Below are positions 4,029 to 37,460 of a stretch of 40,813 nt of DNA, in pieces (the stretch's first letter is position 1; each line of letters starts with the position of its first letter). Source of the DNA: Saprospiraceae bacterium (GTDB taxonomy: Bacteria; Bacteroidota; Bacteroidia; Chitinophagales; Saprospiraceae). The position numbers and the translations under genes were made by a program. The notes below the pieces were generated by a model that was not told the origin of the DNA, ran no database searches, and saw only the letters and a program-made list of their open reading frames with translations. The DNA lies in NCBI GenBank assembly GCA_020436935.1, contig JAGQWX010000044.1, forward strand, positions 1-40,813, in the 5' to 3' direction.

Positions 4029-4044
4029 ACAGGCTTTTCTATGT

Positions 4045-4100
4045 AAGCGTTTCTAAACGTTTCTAAACGCTTAAAAACGTTTAGAAACGTTTAAAAACGA
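4045..4100. repeat. large hairpin built from 10-bp tandem repeats (CGTTTCTAAA)
   Basis: The left arm (4048-4069) is two copies of CGTTTCTAAA plus CG. The right arm (4078-4099) is its reverse complement with one mismatch. The loop is 8 bp. This gives a 22-bp stem with 21 pairs, and AAACGTTT sub-palindromes recur inside. It is non-coding, lies between two plus-strand genes, and has no T-tail. Confidence 0.8.
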
Positions 4101-7193: not shown

Positions 7194-7296
7194 TTGGTTA
7201 TTTGGTTATTTGGTTATTTGGTTATTTGGTTATTTGGTTATCTGGTTATTTGGTTATTTGGTTATTTGGTTATCTGGTTATCTGGTTATTTGGTTA
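7194..7296. repeat. 8-bp tandem repeat TTGGTTAT/TCTGGTTA, ~13 units
   Basis: About 13 uninterrupted units of an octamer (T[T/C]GGTTAT) begin 38 bp after the barrel gene stop and end 43 bp before the 3' end of the next minus-strand gene. Only a T/C variation at one position breaks it. It is a simple-sequence tract prone to copy-number change. An apparent reading frame through it is just the repeat read as a Val/Ile/Trp/Leu/Gly/Tyr pattern. Confidence 0.95.
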
Positions 7297-14679: not shown

Positions 14680-15908
14680 ATCACCGAACCTTTGATGTAA
14701 ACCTGATCGATGAGGTTTTCACCGAAACTGTAGGTAAAATATGCTAAAGAAGGCATGGACTTTGTTAGGACCAGATTTGCTTGTTTACCCCGGTCAATGC
14801 TGCCTGTTTGATGGGCCAAATCCATAGCCGCAGCACCGTTGATGGTGGCTGCTGTAATGGCTTCCTGTGGTAATATTTTCATTTGAATGCAGGCCAGGCT
14901 CAACAATAAAGGCATGTTGCCTGACGGAGACGAACCCGGATTGTAGTCCGTGGCCAGGGCAAAACCAAGCCCCTCATCGATCAGTTTTTTGGCGGGCGGA
15001 TAGGTCAGCCTTAAAAACATCGCCGCTGTCGGAAGCAAACATGGTATGGTATTACTTTCTTTCAAAAGCCCGATTTCTTCATCATTCAATTGCTCGAGGT
15101 GATCAGCACTGATGGCTCGATTTTTTACAGCAGCCCTTACTCCTCCAGAATGGTGGAGCTGATTGGCGTGCACTTTGGCCCGCATGCCAAAACGCTGTCC
15201 GCATTCCAAAATACGGTTTGTTTCTTCCTCGCTGAAAAAGCCGTCCTCACAAAAAACATCGATGTAATCTGCAAGCCCGCTCCCGCCAATTGCCGGGATA
15301 AATTTTTCAATCACATCGTCAACATATTTCCCTTGCTGTGCCTTGTAAGACCTGGGTGTCGCATGGACGAGGTAGGTAGACTTGATGTTGACGGTTAGGC
15401 TTTCTTTTAGCCTTCTGATGACGCGCAACATTTTCATTTCGCCTTCCAAAGTCATCGAATACCCACTCTTGATTTCGACGGATGCTGTGCCCAGACGCAT
15501 CATGTTTTCCAGCCGCAGTTTTGCAGCATGGTACAAATCGTCTTCGGAGGTATCATTGAGCAGATCGGCTGAATGAAGAATGCCTCCTCCCCTGGCGGCA
15601 ATTTCTTCATACTTCAGCCCATTGATCTTGTCTACATATTCTTTTTCCCTGCTGCCGGCGAAAACCAGATGGGTGTGTGAGTCGCACCATGCCGGCAAGA
15701 TGAATTGGCCGGAAGCATCCACTATCTCCTCAAAATTTTCCTGGTTTTCGGGACATGATGCCATGGGTCCAAAATCATGAATGAGCCCTTGCTTTATCAC
15801 CAGGAAGGCATGGCTTATGCTTTTTAAATCTGCCATGGCGCTACCTTTGACCAGGGAAGCCCCAGCATCAACGCCGCAAAGACCTTTTATATTTTTTATC
15901 AGTTTCAA
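14676..15908 (-). CDS. hutI: imidazolonepropionase
   Basis: A 410-residue amidohydrolase that opens 4-imidazolone-5-propionate to N-formimino-L-glutamate, the third step of histidine degradation. Metal site: [10 protein letters not shown] (His78, His80); further ligand/substrate motifs [19 protein letters not shown] and [10 protein letters not shown]. Length is normal for the family (about 400-415). The start is a TTG at 15906-15908 overlapping the hutU stop as TTGA; the first in-frame ATG ([11 protein letters not shown]) would remove the first 24 residues, including the conserved N-terminal strand. Cytoplasmic; third gene of the operon. Confidence 0.95.
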
Positions 15909-20068: not shown

Positions 20069-20411
20069 TTTCGTGACGTATATGTCACATTTACTCCACA
20101 TTTGCATCAATTTGTTATGAAGTCTCTGGTTGAGTTTTCGTGACGTATATGTCACATTTACTACATGCACTCCGATCGCTCACACTTTTGCATCATTTGC
20201 TCTGAAGCTGAGGACTGAGTCTTCGTGACGTATATGTCACATTTACTACATGATCTCCAATCTAGGAAATGTATCTTTTTCTAACATTAATGAGTTTTCG
20301 TGACGTATATGTCACATTTACTACATTCACGCCGATCGCCCACTCTTTTGAATCAATTTCTTTGAAGTACCATGCTGCGATATCGTGACGTATATGTCAC
20401 ATTTACTACAT
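20069..20411 (+). repeat. dyad-repeat array, left copy: 5 units of a ~33-bp repeat with 34-52-bp spacers
   Basis: Five copies of a conserved unit, with the near-palindrome GTGACGTATATGTCAC starting at 20073, 20140, 20225, 20300 and 20385, each followed by ATTTACT and in four units ACAT. Steps are 67, 85, 75 and 85 bp. Spacers after units 2 and 4 are homologous to each other (both contain CCGATCGC and then TTTG-ATCA-TT), and those after 3 and 5 weakly so, so this is a diverged tandem repeat, not a CRISPR. It starts 22 bp after the LysR stop and ends 101 bp before the archaemetzincin ATG. The same core occurs in inverted orientation at 35846-36265. Confidence 0.9.
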
Positions 20412-23821: not shown

Positions 23822-23856
23822 AATGGTTAATGGTTAATGGTTAATGGTTAATGGTT
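23822..23856. repeat. 7-bp tandem repeat AATGGTT, 5 units
   Basis: Five perfect heptamers directly after the SMP-30 stop, followed by a region with two copies of ATTTCTGCGG. Together with the octamer tracts at 1530 and 7194 it is the third short-unit tract in the window lying just after a stop codon or between convergent genes. Confidence 0.95.
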
Positions 23857-24069
23857 AATTTCATGAAATCTGCGGATTTCTGCGGAAGTTTCAACGATTT
23901 CTGCGGGACAATTTTTGCTCTTAACCATTAAGGTTCAATAAGAAGCAGTGAAATATGAGCAAAAATAAAAGCTAAAAGCTAACGGCTAAAATTCATACCT
24001 ATAAATTTTGCTTTACTCCATAGAATTTCAATCTATATTTACATTTTTATACCTTAAAAAGAGAATTCT

Positions 24070-31531: not shown

Positions 31532-33028
31532 TTATGCTATGATGTCACTGATGACTTTGCCGTCGGTATCCGTGAGTCTGAATGGACGGCCCTGAAAGTC
31601 ATAGGTCAATTTTTCGTGATCAAATCCGAGTTGATGGAGGATGGTTGCCTGGATATCGTGGGGGCTCACTCTGCCTGAGACAGCGCTGTAACCAATTTCA
31701 TCAGTCTGTCCGTAGGTGTGGCCCTTTCTGATTCCGCCGCCTGCCATCCACTTGGTGAAAGCTTCAGCGTGGTGATCCCTGCCTTTGAATGCATTGGGCT
31801 TGCCTTCTCTGTTTTCAGCCATTGGTGTTCGGCCAAATTCCCCACCCCAAACCACCAGGGTCTGGTCGAGCAATCCTCTTTGTTTCAGATCCAAAATCAG
31901 GGCGGTCACCGCTTTGTCCGTTTGACGGCATTTGTTGACCAGGCCAACATCAATGGAAATGTCTTCAGCAGTGCCATGAGAATCCCAACCCCAGTCAAAC
32001 AATTGAACGAAACGCACGCCTTTCTCCACCAGTTTTCTTGCCAATAAGACATTGTTGGCAAAGCTTGCCTTTCCCGGCTGTGTGGCATACATGTCATGAA
32101 TGTATTGTGGTTCGTCGTTGATGTTCATTACTTCCGGTACAGCGATTTGCATTCTGTAGGCCAGTTCGTACTGAGATATTCTGCTCAATGTCTCAGGGTC
32201 TCCGTATTCTTCATACTGCTGCTTGTTTACAGCATTGATGGCTTCTATGGAAGCTTTTCGCAAATCTCTCGTTACGTGGTCGGGGTCATTCAAAAACAAA
32301 ATGGGGTCCCCACCCGATCTGCATTGCACTCCCTGATATACTGAGGGTAAAAAGCCGCTGCCCCATATGCTTTTGCCTGCATCGGGATTGGCACCTCCGC
32401 TTGTCAAAACCACAAATCCCGGTAAGTCCTGATTTTCAGAACCCAGTCCATAGGTCACCCAGGAACCCAGGCTTGGCCTACCCAGTCGGGCAAAGCCGGT
32501 GTGCATCAAAAGCTGTGCCGGTGCATGGTTGAACTGATCCGTGGTTACCGCTTTCAGAAAAGATATTTCATCGGCAATCGACTGCAGGTGTGGTAAATAA
32601 TTGCTGATCCATGCTCCACTTTCACCATGCTGAGCAAATTTTGCCTGCGGACCCATCATTTTCGGCACTCCCCTGATGAATGCAAATTTTTTGCCTTCCA
32701 GAAACGATTGAGGACAATCCTGGCCATCCATTTTGAGCAACTCAGGCTTATAATCAAACAATTCCAACTGCGAAGGAGCACCAGCCATATGAAGGTAAAT
32801 TACAGAACGGGCCCTTGGAGCAAAATGAGGAGCCCTGGTCATCAACGGATTCGCCAGATCAAACAATGGCTCTGCCACAGGACCAGATTTACTTCCACAA
32901 GAGCTTAAAAGTCCTCCAAGGGCAAGGCTTCCCAGGCCAAGGAAACTTTCCTTCAGGAAATTGCGCCTGGTTTGTTCCTGCAACTTCAAGGTTATGGCTT
33001 CTTTTGAAAAATCCTTTTGTTTTGCCAT
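31532..33028 (-). CDS. DUF1501 (sulfatase-fold) Tat/lipoprotein
   Basis: A 498-residue DUF1501 protein. The N-terminus combines a twin-arginine motif ([10 protein letters not shown], residues 19-28) and a lipobox (LSSC, Cys44). Family blocks: [64 protein letters not shown] and [21 protein letters not shown]1501 has an alkaline-phosphatase-like fold and almost always sits next to DUF1549/DUF1553 genes in planctomycetes and verrucomicrobia. Its ATG overlaps the upstream stop by one base (TGATG), implying coupling. Envelope-located; substrate unknown. Confidence 0.93.
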
Positions 33029-35688
33029 CAGTTTTTACTTATTACTTCATCAAGATTGAATATGGCATTGGTCACCAGTGCCAGCGCATTTACCTCCGCG
33101 TCCTCCTTGTTTTTAAAAGCCGTATATGCTGTATCATATAAATTCCTCAGTGCTTTTTTCCGTTCGGGGTCTATCTCCCTGCCCAGTGCCTTTTTGTAAG
33201 CCTTCGATATGCTTACATCGACATCAGGCTGATAAACATTTTTTGCAAAATGCCAGGCCAGGTCTACGTAAACAGAGTCATTAAGGGTCGTAAGTGCCTG
33301 AAGTGGTGTATTGGTATTGATTCTTCGCGCTGAGCATACTTCTCTTCCGACACCGTCAAAATTGACCATGCTGGGGTAAGGCGCTGTTCTTTTCCAAAAG
33401 GTGTACAATGCCCTCCTGTATTGCTGGTCGCCCTCGCTTTTGATCCACTTTTTGCCATTGTATGGAGACAGCCAAACTCCTTCGGGTTGATAAGGCATGA
33501 CGGAAGGCCCATACATTTGAGGAAACATCTTGCCCGAAATAGCGAGCGCCTGGTCTCTTATCTGCTCTGCTGTAAGTCTGGTACGCGGGCCTCTTGCCAG
33601 ATAAATATTGAATGGATCTTTGGCCAGATGGTCGGCAGTCACCTTTGAATCCTGGCGATAAGTTGCACTCATGACCAGGCTTTTGATGAGTTGTTTGACA
33701 CTCCATTTTTGAGCTGTCATGAATTGATGGGAAAGATGATCCAGCAATTCCGGATGACTTGGGTATGCTCCCTGTGAACCTAGATCTTCGAGCGTTTCTA
33801 CCAATCCCCTTCCAAATATTTGCTCCCATACCCTGTTGACCATCGTTCGGGAAGTAAGGGGATGCTCCGGTGCTGTCATCCACATGGCCAATCCAAGTCT
33901 GTTGGGCGGATAATTTTTGTTGCTCACGTTGAATATATCAGGGACTCCCGGGTTTACTTTCTCACCCTTAGAAAGCCAGCTTCCCCTTTCAAAAATCCTG
34001 GTTTCTCTCCTCCATACAGGGACATTTTCCACCATAATGGGCGTTTGATCGGCTTTTGCATCCAGCAGTTCCCAAAAGGCACGGCGCTGTTCTTCAGGAA
34101 ATTGTTTGACGCTGCCATCGTTGAAATGAAACCAGTCAAACTGTATGCCGGTGCGCAACGGATCGGTCAATTCCTTGCTTTCAAAAGTAAAAAACAGGTC
34201 ATGCACACCCTCATGGCGATCCAAATCCATTTGGGCCATCTGCCAACCCATATTAGGTTTTTTTAAAGAAAAACTGCCAATTGGCATGCCCTTGACGTGA
34301 TCAAGGTGAATTGTCAGTGTGCCAGTCTTCAATCCACTGGAATATCTGAAAATAAGATGATTAACTCCGGTGAGATCGACAGCCGCAAGCCTCGCTGATG
34401 AATGATTGCGCATCGCCAGCCACTTGGTATCGGAGAGTTCGCTATTGACAAACTGGTCGGTTTCCAGTGAATTTATCGAGGGCTGGAAAGTCTTCAAAAA
34501 CCATTTTATTTGTTGAGCTTCTTCAATGCCCAGGGCTTCGTTCGCCCAAAGTCCAAAATCGTCCAGTTTTTTTCTTTGAACATCATCGAAGTGCCTTAAA
34601 ACCGGATATTCAGCATAGGCATCGTTGTCTCTGCTGTTGTTGAAATAGGCCATAAAGCGATAATAATCTTCGTGTTTGATGGGGTCGTACGGGTGGCTGT
34701 GACATTGTACACAAGCAAATGTTGTACTCATTAGACTCTCCCAGGTGGTATTGACCCGATCCAGCACCGCCGCAACTCTGAATTCCTCATTGTCTGTGCC
34801 TCCTTCGTCATTGGTCATGGTATTGCGATGGAATGCGGTGGCAATGAGCTGGTCATCTGAAGGCTTGGGCAAAAAATCTCCGGCCATTTGCTCCATGATC
34901 ATCTGATCATAAGGCTTGTCTTCGTTGAATGACCTGATGAGCCAATCCCGATAGCGCCAAATATTGCGGTCAGAATCGCGTTCGTACCCTTTTGTATCGG
35001 CGTATCTGGCAATGTCAAGCCACATAGAAGTCCATTTCTCACCAAAATGTGGATTGCCCAACAGACTGTCGACCAGGGCTTCGTAAGTATTATCGTTCGG
35101 TTGTTGCAGATACGCTTTTGTCAATGACTCGGGTGCAGGAAAACCTATGAGATCTAGCGCGAGCCTTCTGGCCAGGACTTCAGGAGGAGCCTGCTCAGAC
35201 ATCGTCAGGTCCATAGCGTTGGCTTTGGCCTCAATAAAGTGGTCTATGTCATTTTTTGACCATGGACCAGCGTCAGGCAAAGGATGGTCTTTCACCGGCT
35301 CAAAAGCCCAGTGTTGGCCCCATTTGGCTCCCTGGCTGATCCATTTGGTGAGCAATGCAATTTCATCTTCGGGAAGTGGGTCTGCTTCGAGTGGCATGCG
35401 TTCCTCCGGATCGTGCAAGGTGAGTCTCCTGATCATTTCTGACTTTCCGGGATCACCCGGTACGATGCCAAATTTCCCGGACTTCAGTTGTGCCTTGGCT
35501 TCTTCTTCAAACAATAGAGAAAATCCACCTTGCTTTTTCACGCCACCATGGCAAGCTATGCATCTTTTGTTGAGTATGGGTTTTACGTGAAGGCTGTAGT
35601 CGACGAGTTCTTCCTTGCAAGAGCTAAGGCAAATGATCGTGCCGAAAATGAAAATGGTGTAAAAGAATTGGCCTTTCCAGGTCGTCAT
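33028..35688 (-). CDS. PSCyt1-DUF1549-DUF1553 planctomycete-type cytochrome lipoprotein
   Basis: An 886-residue protein with an N-terminal lipobox (LSSC, Cys24) and a first heme site CIACH at residues 43-47 in a PSCyt1 domain ([19 protein letters not shown]). DUF1549 follows ([63 protein letters not shown] with a second CxxCH near residue 325). DUF1553 is at the C-terminus ([40 protein letters not shown]). Between them lies a carbohydrate-binding-like insert. These proteins are abundant in planctomycetes and are thought to take part in oxidative catabolism of glycans or related compounds. First gene of the operon; 157 bp upstream lies the right dyad-repeat array. Confidence 0.93.
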
Positions 35689-35845
35689 GCAGCTCTGGTT
35701 TGAATCAAAGCAATTTTACGAAAGTTTTGTCAAATTCCGACTATTGAGATGTATTTGCTGGCGACAAAAACAATGACGAAATAAAAGCTGCGCCTAAAGG
35801 ATATTCTTAAAATGGGAAGTGAAGGGCTATCTGGATTTTGGTGGA

Positions 35846-36265
35846 GTAAATGTGACATATACGTCACGGTAGATTATTTTAATGATCATGCAGTAAATGT
35901 GACATATACGTCATGTGAATTAAAAATCAAGATTTCTTGCTACCCATGGAGTAAATGTGACATATACGTCACGATTGAAATTCATAGTGGCAATGTAGTG
36001 AATGTGACATATACGTCATGGTTTACAATTACAGGGGTAATGCCGTAAATGTGACATATACGTCATGTGAATTAAAAATCAAGATTTCTTGCTATCCATG
36101 GAGTAAATGTGACATATACGTCACGCTTGAAATTCATAGTGAAGATAGAGTATATGTGACATATACGTCATGGTATACAATTACAGTGGCAATGCCGTAA
36201 ATGTGACATATACGTCACGATATACAATTACATTGGCGATGGAGTAAATGTGACATATACGTCAC
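35846..36265 (-). repeat. dyad-repeat array, right copy: 9 units with 23-bp core and 23-24- or 35-bp spacers
   Basis: Nine copies of GTAAATGTGACATATACGTCAC or a close variant start at 35846, 35893, 35951, 35998, 36045, 36103, 36150, 36196 and 36243. Steps are 47, 58, 47, 47, 58, 47, 46 and 47 bp. Units 2-4 plus spacers (35893-36044) are nearly repeated by units 5-7 (36045-36195), showing tandem duplication of a ~152-bp block. The reverse complement matches the left array's core. It lies 157 bp upstream of the PSCyt1 operon start. No reading frame through it looks like a real protein. Confidence 0.93.
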
Positions 36266-36311
36266 GATCAGAGGCACACATTTCAACAAAGATCAAAGAC
36301 TAAGCACGGTT

Positions 36312-36461
36312 GCTTAGGCTCCGCTCAGCCATCTTTTATTAACTACGAATCTTCAATTACGAATTACGGATTATTTTGTTTAAGGTTTAGAGCTTCAAGG
36401 TTTAGGAGAAATTAAAACCTTAATGAAACTTAATGTCTTAATGGTACAATCCGAAATCTTT
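36312..36461. repeat. 150-bp direct repeat, copy 1
   Basis: Closely matches 36725-36874: both begin GCTT-GGCTCCGCTCAGCC, run through CTTCAATTACGAATTACGGA and AGAAATTAAAACCTTAATG, and end TACAATCCGAAATCTTT. The copies differ by scattered substitutions. No coding sequence is recognisable. Confidence 0.9.
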
Positions 36462-36724
36462 GCGTACCCAATCTTCAACCTCTCTTTGCGCCATTGGGAG
36501 AGAATTGGGGTTATTTGTTAAAGGTTAAAAGTTAAAGGCTCTTCAAGAAGGTTTTTGTCACTAGGCATTATTGATCACCAAATACCAAAGAATAAAGACT
36601 AAAGACCTGCCCGCGCGCTACCCTGGCCCTAAAGGGAACCCACCCAAAATTCACAAAGTCAATACTCCCAAATCGAAAACTTTCAATTCTCAATTTTCAA
36701 ATTTCAATTTTCCCCAAAGGCCAG

Positions 36725-36874
36725 GCTTCGGCTCCGCTCAGCCAACTTTTTTTAATTACGAGTCTTCAATTACGAATTACGGATGATTTTGTTTAGGGTT
36801 TAGAGCTTTAAGGTTGAGGAGAAATTAAAACCTTAATGAAACTTAATGTCTTAATGGTACAATCCGAAATCTTT
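36725..36874. repeat. 150-bp direct repeat, copy 2
   Basis: Second copy of 36312-36461. It is followed, as is the DNA before it at ~36682, by a short tract of CAATTTTCAA/CAATTCTCAA/AAATTTCAA words, suggesting a larger decayed repeat unit. The interval 36462-36724 holds no gene I can support. Confidence 0.9.
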
Positions 36875-36887
36875 CAATTTTCAATTC

Positions 36888-37340
36888 TCAAATTTCAAAT
36901 TTCCCTAAAGACTCCCATCTTGTCTTATCCATCACAAAAACCAGCTCTCCGCCTTTCATACCAGTTTCCTGCCAAAGCGCATTTTTATAAAAGTGAGCAG
37001 CCCTTGTTCCAGGTGCAGTGGTGAGCGTCAAGTCATTTTCTGTAGTTTTGAAATATTCATCCAACATGTGGTCATGAAGTGCCCGGCCTATTCCTTTGCC
37101 TTCTTCATCGGGATGAACAAATAGAGCCCAAACGCTGCTGTTGGTCAGATCAAGAAAAGCAAATCCTTTGATAACAGATTTTTCCACCCAAACCCAGCCT
37201 TTGCCTCCTTCACCCAAATAGTTGAAGTAGTCTTCCTTTTTCACGACATCGGGCCTGCTCAGTCTGTTTTCTTTTACAGCCAGGCGGATGGTCATCATTG
37301 CCAGAACATCCTTGTTTTTTGCAGCTCGGATTTTACCCAA
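36888..37340 (-). CDS. GNAT-family N-acetyltransferase
   Basis: A 150-residue acetyltransferase. The fold begins at GKIRAAKNKDVLAMMTIRLA, so a TTG at 37338-37340 is the best start; the open frame continues to a GTG at 37418, but those residues look untranslated. The acetyl-CoA-binding motif is VWALFVHPDEEGKGIGRALH, and strand beta4/5 ends in AAHFYKNALWQETGMKGGE. It transfers an acetyl group from acetyl-CoA to an unidentified amine. Genes of this subgroup (VKENRLS near the N-terminus) are common and poorly characterised. The start is uncertain. Confidence 0.8.
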   Translation of the reverse strand: MGKIRAAKNKDVLAMMTIRLAVKENRLSRPDVVKKEDYFNYLGEGGKGWVWVEKSVIKGFAFLDLTNSSVWALFVHPDEEGKGIGRALHDHMLDEYFKTTENDLTLTTAPGTRAAHFYKNALWQETGMKGGELVFVMDKTRWESLGKFEI

Positions 37341-37460
37341 TTCATTTCTTTTGATGCATAAAAATATAAAAGCCTCTGAAATATGAAAGCTGTGGACCAA
37401 AGAAATTATGAACAACACTTTATGCTCGCCTCAAACAAACAGCTTAAACCAAATATTTTC

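Follow-up and report, generated by a model that had tools for sequence, protein, structure and literature searches.

A dispersed 25-bp dyad in head-to-tail intergenic arrays of a Saprospiraceae genome, possibly the site of a dimeric DNA-binding protein

The stretch of 40,813 nucleotides analysed here (the window; contig JAGQWX010000044.1 of the Saprospiraceae bacterium assembly GCA_020436935.1) contains, between a gene for a PSCyt1-PSCyt2-PSD1 protein and a GNAT acetyltransferase-like gene, nine copies of a 25-bp imperfect inverted repeat (the right array; Table 1). We give about an even chance to the reading that this array represents one of the clusters formed by a dispersed intergenic repeat that is specific to its lineage and resembles the repetitive extragenic palindromic (REP) sequences and Neisseria intergenic mosaic elements (NIME), and that a dimeric protein acting chromosome-wide would bind the unit as double-stranded DNA. 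A genome-wide protein-binding site is the prediction that fits best with the conservation of the 15-base core GTGACATATACGTCA, which agrees with the consensus of its array at about 98% on average (94–100% by position), the spacers at about 75% (125 units); a nucleoid or partition site had been among the three suggestions made from the letters alone.

The nine-unit array, which had been proposed from the letters of the window alone (the sequence-only reading), is real, as TGTGACATATACGTCA is present in nine exact copies on the + strand between 35851 and 36264. The whole window contains 28 matches at up to three mismatches, including some sites counted from both strands, versus a shuffle mean of 0.16, with none of 100 shuffles reaching 28, and the 15-mer core of the right array has no substitution in 135 bases. 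The unit-to-unit steps are 47, 58, 47, 47, 58, 47, 47 and 47 bp, so that of the steps claimed earlier (46–47 or 58 bp) those of 47 and 58 bp are borne out and that of 46 bp does not occur in this array; the two lengths lie, as was also claimed, near 4.5 and 5.5 turns at 10.5 bp per turn. The duplication of a three-unit block of about 152 bp is likewise confirmed by repeat comparison (Table 1), and Tandem Repeats Finder (TRF) scores the period of 152 at 594. As the spacers differ among the copies of the duplicated block, a simple assembly stutter is argued against. The block is a higher-order repeat from the same amplification process as the units.

The source genome (5.82 Mb, 181 contigs, 97.4% complete) contains 116 exact copies of the 15-mer (59 and 57 by strand) and none of the reversed control. 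At up to three mismatches, and grouped within stretches around the listed exact copies, 136 units are found at 24 loci, comprising at least fourteen arrays of 4–18 units, one pair and nine single units; two of the single units lie less than 250 bp from the end of a contig and could be truncated arrays. Within the 14 arrays, each of the 111 adjacent pairs is head-to-tail, an orientation that rests on the exact copies, every one of those listed in an array being on one strand; the opposite-strand count in arrays (64 at up to two mismatches) is uninformative, since the reverse complement of each unit matches the unit itself within two. Almost all loci (23 of 24) are outside mechanically called open reading frames (ORFs), with one single unit inside an ORF of about 124 amino acids, and two arrays reach 16 bp into the start of a called ORF. 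A coding repeat is rejected on this location and on steps, such as 46 and 47 bp, which are not multiples of three. A replication-strand signal is rejected because the GC skew, taken in the orientation of each array, is positive at some arrays and negative at others (stretches of only 10–41 kb). The exact 15-mer, in one orientation, has no match in the open-access literature searched, and nothing is claimed beyond that literature.

The unit has the form TGTAGTAAATGT-G-ACATATACGTCA, in which two 12-bp half-sites surround a central G and 9 of the 12 positions are complementary around one centre (67 of 5000 same-base shuffles reach its score). The conserved block is sharply bounded and extends from position -10 to position +16 relative to the 15-mer, the flanks being unrelated across loci (one consensus per locus, 24 loci), and the 25-bp dyad spans its strongly conserved part. 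Across loci, the unpaired left positions -8, -7 and -3 are the least informative (0.67, 1.26 and 1.21 bits), followed by -9 (1.35 bits). Of the 136 units, 120 carry the right half-site TGACGTATATGT unchanged, whereas the left half-site is variable, its commonest form TGTAGTAAATGT occurring in 62 of 136; GTAG is found at -9 to -6 in 15 of the 24 locus consensuses and GTAA at -6 to -3 in 20. Isolated half-sites are rare, with 123 right half-sites genome-wide versus 116 full 15-mers and, among 100 places listed, one on a contig without units, while GTAGTAAATGTG has 66 copies, 3 of them on contigs without units (reversed control, 2). The sequence-only reading had described a narrower dyad, GTGAC..GTCAC. 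This dyad is also present (GTGAC-N6-GTCAC), its outer pair being kept in only 86 of 136 units, and the conserved left ten bases are not explained by it; the 25-bp inverted repeat is the better reading of the unit, which thus remains a dyad with new limits, in an array that is one of 14 genome-wide.

Pairwise divergence reaches 13–36% in the spacers of 13 of the 14 arrays, versus 1.5–11.4% in the 27-bp block. In the six regular arrays with steps of 45–48 bp (C2, C122, C137, C128, C92 and C181), a unit (up to three mismatches) is present at every inner step, and decayed inner units were therefore not overlooked there. Something seems to recognise the unit, since the site hardly varies whereas the intervening DNA drifts, and the core-spacer contrast points to putative recognition of the core. 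Spacers are array-specific and related within an array, which argues for local tandem growth: of the 28 pairs of spacer consensuses from short-step arrays, one (C2–C122) is clearly alike (0 of 300 shuffles), and the next two pairs (2 and 6 of 300 shuffles) are near expectation for 28 tests. The likeness of the C2 (L032) and C122 (L038) spacers suggests that one may descend from the other via transfer of a multi-unit piece. From these patterns we infer a dimeric protein that would recognise the 25-bp unit through its two half-sites and whose role in the cell would be closer to nucleoid organisation, partition or recombination than to the regulation of one operon. A unit would land at a new intergenic place, unequal crossing-over or slippage would copy it with its local flank into a head-to-tail array, and the spacers would then drift while recognition would preserve the sequence of the unit.

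Several observations weigh against a recognised and selected site. The four-unit array L042 (C166) shows no contrast (divergence of 0.03 in spacers and 0.043 in the block), 4 of the 18 units of the C2 array are mutated, and at most 4 of 28 array-edge positions resemble decayed units (9–11 of 25 mismatches; 12 or more at the other edges), so that not every site is kept. Counted per unit, position -9 is about as variable as -7. The short-step arrays show 5 length changes per 193 substitutions versus 15 per 242 in the long-step arrays (p = 0.11, C88 array excluded), and a locking of spacer length in short-step arrays is rejected on this value. MatP, whose half-sites look similar, was not found in the source genome (PF06303). 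The contrast was measured within one genome, and a core kept uniform by copying or by core-centred conversion, without selection, would look similar.

In a search of the source genome and 59 others, the exact 15-mer is absent from five congeners and 31 other family members, and elsewhere among the 59 it matches just once, in a genome of the same order. When up to three mismatches in 23 bases are allowed, matches occur in 3 of 398 family genomes, the source genome having 135 copies and the two others one three-mismatch match each. Paired exact 15-mers 25–55 bp apart occur in 1 of 395 class genomes, which is the source genome. The aligned ends of ribE and priA are 24 bp apart in the congener G005 (proteins 69% and 65% identical) and 1338 bp apart in the source genome, where an array and a run of N lie between them. 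No array was found in the 112 bp between the called start of the M54-like gene of G005 (56% identical) and the preceding ORF, nor in the approximately 570 bp examined upstream of the PSCyt1 orthologue in the congener G004 (53% identical protein). The absence in relatives and the ribE-priA comparison indicate that the arrays look gained in the source lineage, at least once inside a tight gene pair. Part of the region upstream of the PSCyt1 orthologue of G004 (L229, contig C43) is filled by an inverted repeat, CTAGTGCTCTGTCCAGAAA ... TTTCTGGACAGAGCACTAG, resembling a miniature inverted-repeat transposable element.

Arrays with other cores were sought in samples of G004 (about 854 kb) and G003 (547 kb), and none of such architecture was seen in two (L196 and L208) of 10 listed clusters; no unit-like 16-mer is among those listed for these samples, a weak result as about three arrays would be expected at the density of the source genome. 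One of the two clusters, at 14700–15400 of L208 (G003), consists of about six long hairpins GCAAGTTTCCCTTAAGTATAAGGGACAAGTGTAACTTGC with steps of 70–92 bp, unrelated to the 25-bp unit. A scan of named GTDB genomes for three successive occurrences of TGAC-N6-GTCA, a pattern built on the narrow dyad, gave at least 112 stretches, which were compared by core and step; none has the array core among the three listed as commonest.

As far as they are described in the portions of two papers drawn on here, the REP families are the nearest known kind of repeat, while the dRS3/NIME arrays are the nearest in architecture. REP families comprise extragenic palindromes of 20–40 bp in many copies, mostly intergenic and in some cases species-restricted; in some clusters the units recur in tandem together with flanks that vary in length, and one family with 5-bp stems is largely clustered (PMC3733652). 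The present family shares with them a high-copy palindromic unit (the 25-bp dyad, 136 copies), a mostly intergenic location (23 of 24 loci outside ORFs), tandem reiteration with flanks and restriction to one species or genome. However, REP pairs described there are mostly inverted (head-to-head or tail-to-tail), whereas all 111 pairs here are head-to-tail. The REP tag GTAG/CGTC is unpaired and adjoins one end of the stem; the GTAG seen here (15 of 24 loci), a possible equivalent, lies inside the dyad arm and, when the commonest unit is folded with its weak predicted pairing, is unpaired but not beside the stem. Further differences are this weak fold and the lack of a linked transposase gene in the stretches examined. 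The source genome has two Y1_Tnp genes, and no unit-like sequence occurs in the surrounding 3.4 kb and 16 kb examined, a missed gene being possible at 97.4% completeness. A REP linked to a REP-associated tyrosine transposase (RAYT) is rejected, as one IS200-like gene is without units and the second Y1 gene lies amid other palindromes of CTTTAG type (by eye). At L309 (G000:C141), an IS200-like tyrosine transposase gene stands amid the palindromes GGACTTTAGTCC and GGGCTAAAGCCC and looks, by eye, like a separate REP-RAYT pair.

The dRS3 unit is 20 bp long with inverted-repeat ends and forms intergenic arrays of 200–2700 bp, almost 700 copies being known; repeats in arrays are targets of phage integration, and the intervening sequence consists of RS element families (PMC3898611). 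The present arrays are alike in having a short unit with inverted-repeat ends in intergenic arrays with other sequence between the copies, but differ from this description in that the spacers are array-specific, except in C2–C122 (28 short-step pairs compared), instead of belonging to shared families, that the units of an array all have one orientation, and that no phage or integrase was linked to them in the searches made. The array has no blastn match in phage or plasmid collections and no exact 18-mer match in viral contigs.

These comparisons bear on a selfish REP- or NIME-like repeat, which is possible though somewhat unlikely. An enzyme encoded by a mobile element, such as a nickase, a transposase or the integrase of a phage, would act at the unit and spread it, short conversion tracts centred on the cut would homogenise the cores, and the host would gain nothing. 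Such a repeat would agree with the dispersed, intergenic occurrence in one genome among those searched and with about 1.3 kb of extra DNA between the otherwise adjacent ribE and priA, and there are published precedents in the tandem units with variable-length flanks of REP clusters (PMC3733652) and in the intergenic dRS3 arrays targeted by phage integration (PMC3898611), as far as these accounts go. It agrees less well with the two IS200-like transposase genes, neither of which carries the unit in the surrounding stretches examined, with the commonest unit being a poor hairpin and rarer variants better ones, with cores that are mostly intact in arrays whose spacers diverge by 25–36%, and with the absence of matches in the phage and plasmid collections and of exact 18-mers in viral contigs.

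The genes flanking the arrays were considered for a multi-site operator, which would control the PSCyt1 operon and other genes beside arrays. The 28 genes flanking the 14 arrays were run against Pfam, an adjoining short ORF (<80 amino acids) being skipped in three cases, and one flanking gene was examined for the ten single or paired loci. Four of the 28 genes have no family, and the others include PSCyt1/PSD1, GNAT, LysR, M54-like peptidase, sulfatase, GH10, S66 peptidase, WYL regulator, HTH_20 protein, penicillinase-repressor family, beta-lactamase family, MmgE/PrpD, riboflavin synthase (lumazine-binding), PriA and two glucose/sorbosone dehydrogenases, with no common function or orientation evident. 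Seven arrays lie between co-directional, five between divergent and two between convergent genes. An operator is consistent with the position of the right array, whose first 25-bp unit begins 153 bp from the start of the PSCyt1 ORF at 35688 (the sequence-only reading had placed its array, from 35846 on, 157 bp upstream of this operon), with at least one flanking gene start facing the array at 12 of 14 arrays, and with the four transcription regulators of four different types among the 28 flanking genes. However, the neighbours are unrelated, convergent pairs enclose 2 of the 14 arrays, no array stands upstream of the PSCyt1 operon in G004 or of the M54-like gene in G005, and none of the five congeners searched has the site. 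The operator of the PSCyt1 operon, suggested by the sequence-only reading, is rejected on the unrelated neighbours and the absence from the approximately 570 bp examined at the operon of a congener, and is improbable for the other arrays too. Neither related, suitably oriented neighbours nor conservation in relatives, as a promoter-operator array of a single regulon would have, were found. Operator arrays of bacterial regulators consist of dyad sites repeated near a gene start, and the present arrays, which are alike in this respect, differ in their unrelated neighbours, their locations between convergent genes and their absence from congeners. The arrays that adjoin the four regulators are the left array of the window (LysR), L035, L038 and L040 (WYL, HTH_20 and penicillinase repressor among them), possibly by chance.

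An RNA-structure array, also suggested earlier, would consist of transcribed hairpins that act in RNA, for example as a protein sponge, and is quite implausible. The array folds better than shuffled sequence on either strand (z -3.4 and -6.6), but near-identical imperfect palindromes of any set fold well compared with shuffles. Two rarer variants of the unit reach, as DNA, -4.7 and -6.1 kcal/mol (z -2.3 and -3.2), which favours the suggestion, whereas the commonest unit alone reaches -1.3 kcal/mol (z -0.11) and its reverse complement -2.0 kcal/mol (z -1.2), the unpaired positions of the dyad are paired in 5 to 27 of 136 units, and no Rfam family is found at threshold. The value of the commonest unit as single-stranded DNA also makes hairpin-based recognition less likely, the rarer variants folding better. 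An array of clustered regularly interspaced short palindromic repeats (CRISPR) is rejected on the pattern of the repeats, no search for cas genes having been made, as the spacers within an array are related copies and the step length varies between arrays.

The sites parS, matS and others that organise chromosomes are usually single and conserved across related species. The present family resembles parS and matS in having a conserved dyad at many chromosomal places regardless of the neighbouring genes, and differs from them in forming arrays of 4–18 units in one genome, whereas parS and matS are mostly single sites conserved among relatives. A chromosome-dimension site of the MatP-matS type, in particular, can practically be dismissed. 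The half-sites GTGAC and GTCAC are like those of the matS motif GTGACRNYGTCAC, but the spacing is off by 3 bp, the units are clustered whereas matS is single, and PF06303 is found in none of four genomes, including the source genome (97.4% complete), with a positive E. coli control.

Helical phasing, which the sequence-only reading had taken from the right array, fits that array but is not upheld as a genome-wide rule. Steps range from 45 to 218 bp genome-wide; eight of the 14 arrays have steps of 45–48 bp (the right array of the window having 58 bp too), and the other six have median steps of 65 to 214 bp. Six periods were tried, and phase coherence at 10.5 bp per turn is weak, with p about 0.03 for one median step per array (n = 14) and about 0.11 for the 36 distinct steps; at 11.0 bp per turn, p is 0.009 and 0.018, respectively. 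Strict phasing as a rule is rejected on the weak coherence.

A more far-reaching interpretation, tentative and rather doubtful, likens the arrays to satellite DNA, as its counterpart in bacteria, with a conserved box for a protein; a single dimeric protein would bind the at least fourteen dispersed arrays in a lineage-specific organisation of the chromosome, arrays would arise by local tandem and higher-order duplication, and the 25-bp box would be selected while the rest drifts. The fourteen arrays, nearly all with their own diverging spacer, are a natural experiment separating the part that would be recognised (25 bp, including free positions) from the hitch-hiking part. If it is true that a host protein binds, the arrays would represent a binding system that arose recently, spans the chromosome, is missing from the congeners searched and has a datable origin; if a mobile element drives them, the repeat would be of REP/NIME kind, but one that grows strictly head-to-tail through an enzyme yet to be found.

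Table 1. Arrays, repeat blocks and neighbouring genes in the window
Feature	Position	Strand	Remarks
Right array, nine 25-bp units in direct orientation	35842..36264	+	Unit limits from genome-wide consensus and dyad analysis
Right-array units 1–5	35842-35866, 35889-35913, 35947-35971, 35994-36018, 36041-36065	+	
Right-array units 6–9	36099-36123, 36146-36170, 36193-36217, 36240-36264	+	
Three-unit 152-bp block, copy 1	35842..35993	+	Repeat comparison; TRF period 152
Three-unit 152-bp block, copy 2	35994..36145	+	88% identity to copy 1
Left array, five units of the 25-bp dyad	20074..20410	-	Between LysR-type and M54-peptidase-like genes
PSCyt1-PSCyt2-PSD1 protein gene	33028..35688	-	Neighbour of right array; control by array not implied
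GNAT acetyltransferase-like gene	36888..37418	-	Other flank of right array

The left array of the window has steps of 67, 85, 75 and 85 bp. Three matches to a Bacteroidota-type promoter, each with one or two mismatches, were found near the right array in a scan without control, and nothing is claimed from them. A second family of dispersed repeats lies directly to the right of the right array (36284–36875), with internal copies at 36312–36461 and 36725–36874 that are 94% identical and many partial copies elsewhere in the source genome; copies of this family occur within about 500 bp of five of the ten loci that have a single unit or a pair. The window also contains short tandem repeats of 7, 8 and 10 bp (7194–7296, 23822–23859, 1527–1603 and 4044–4099), and matches to an AATGGTT stretch are scattered also in G004 and G005.
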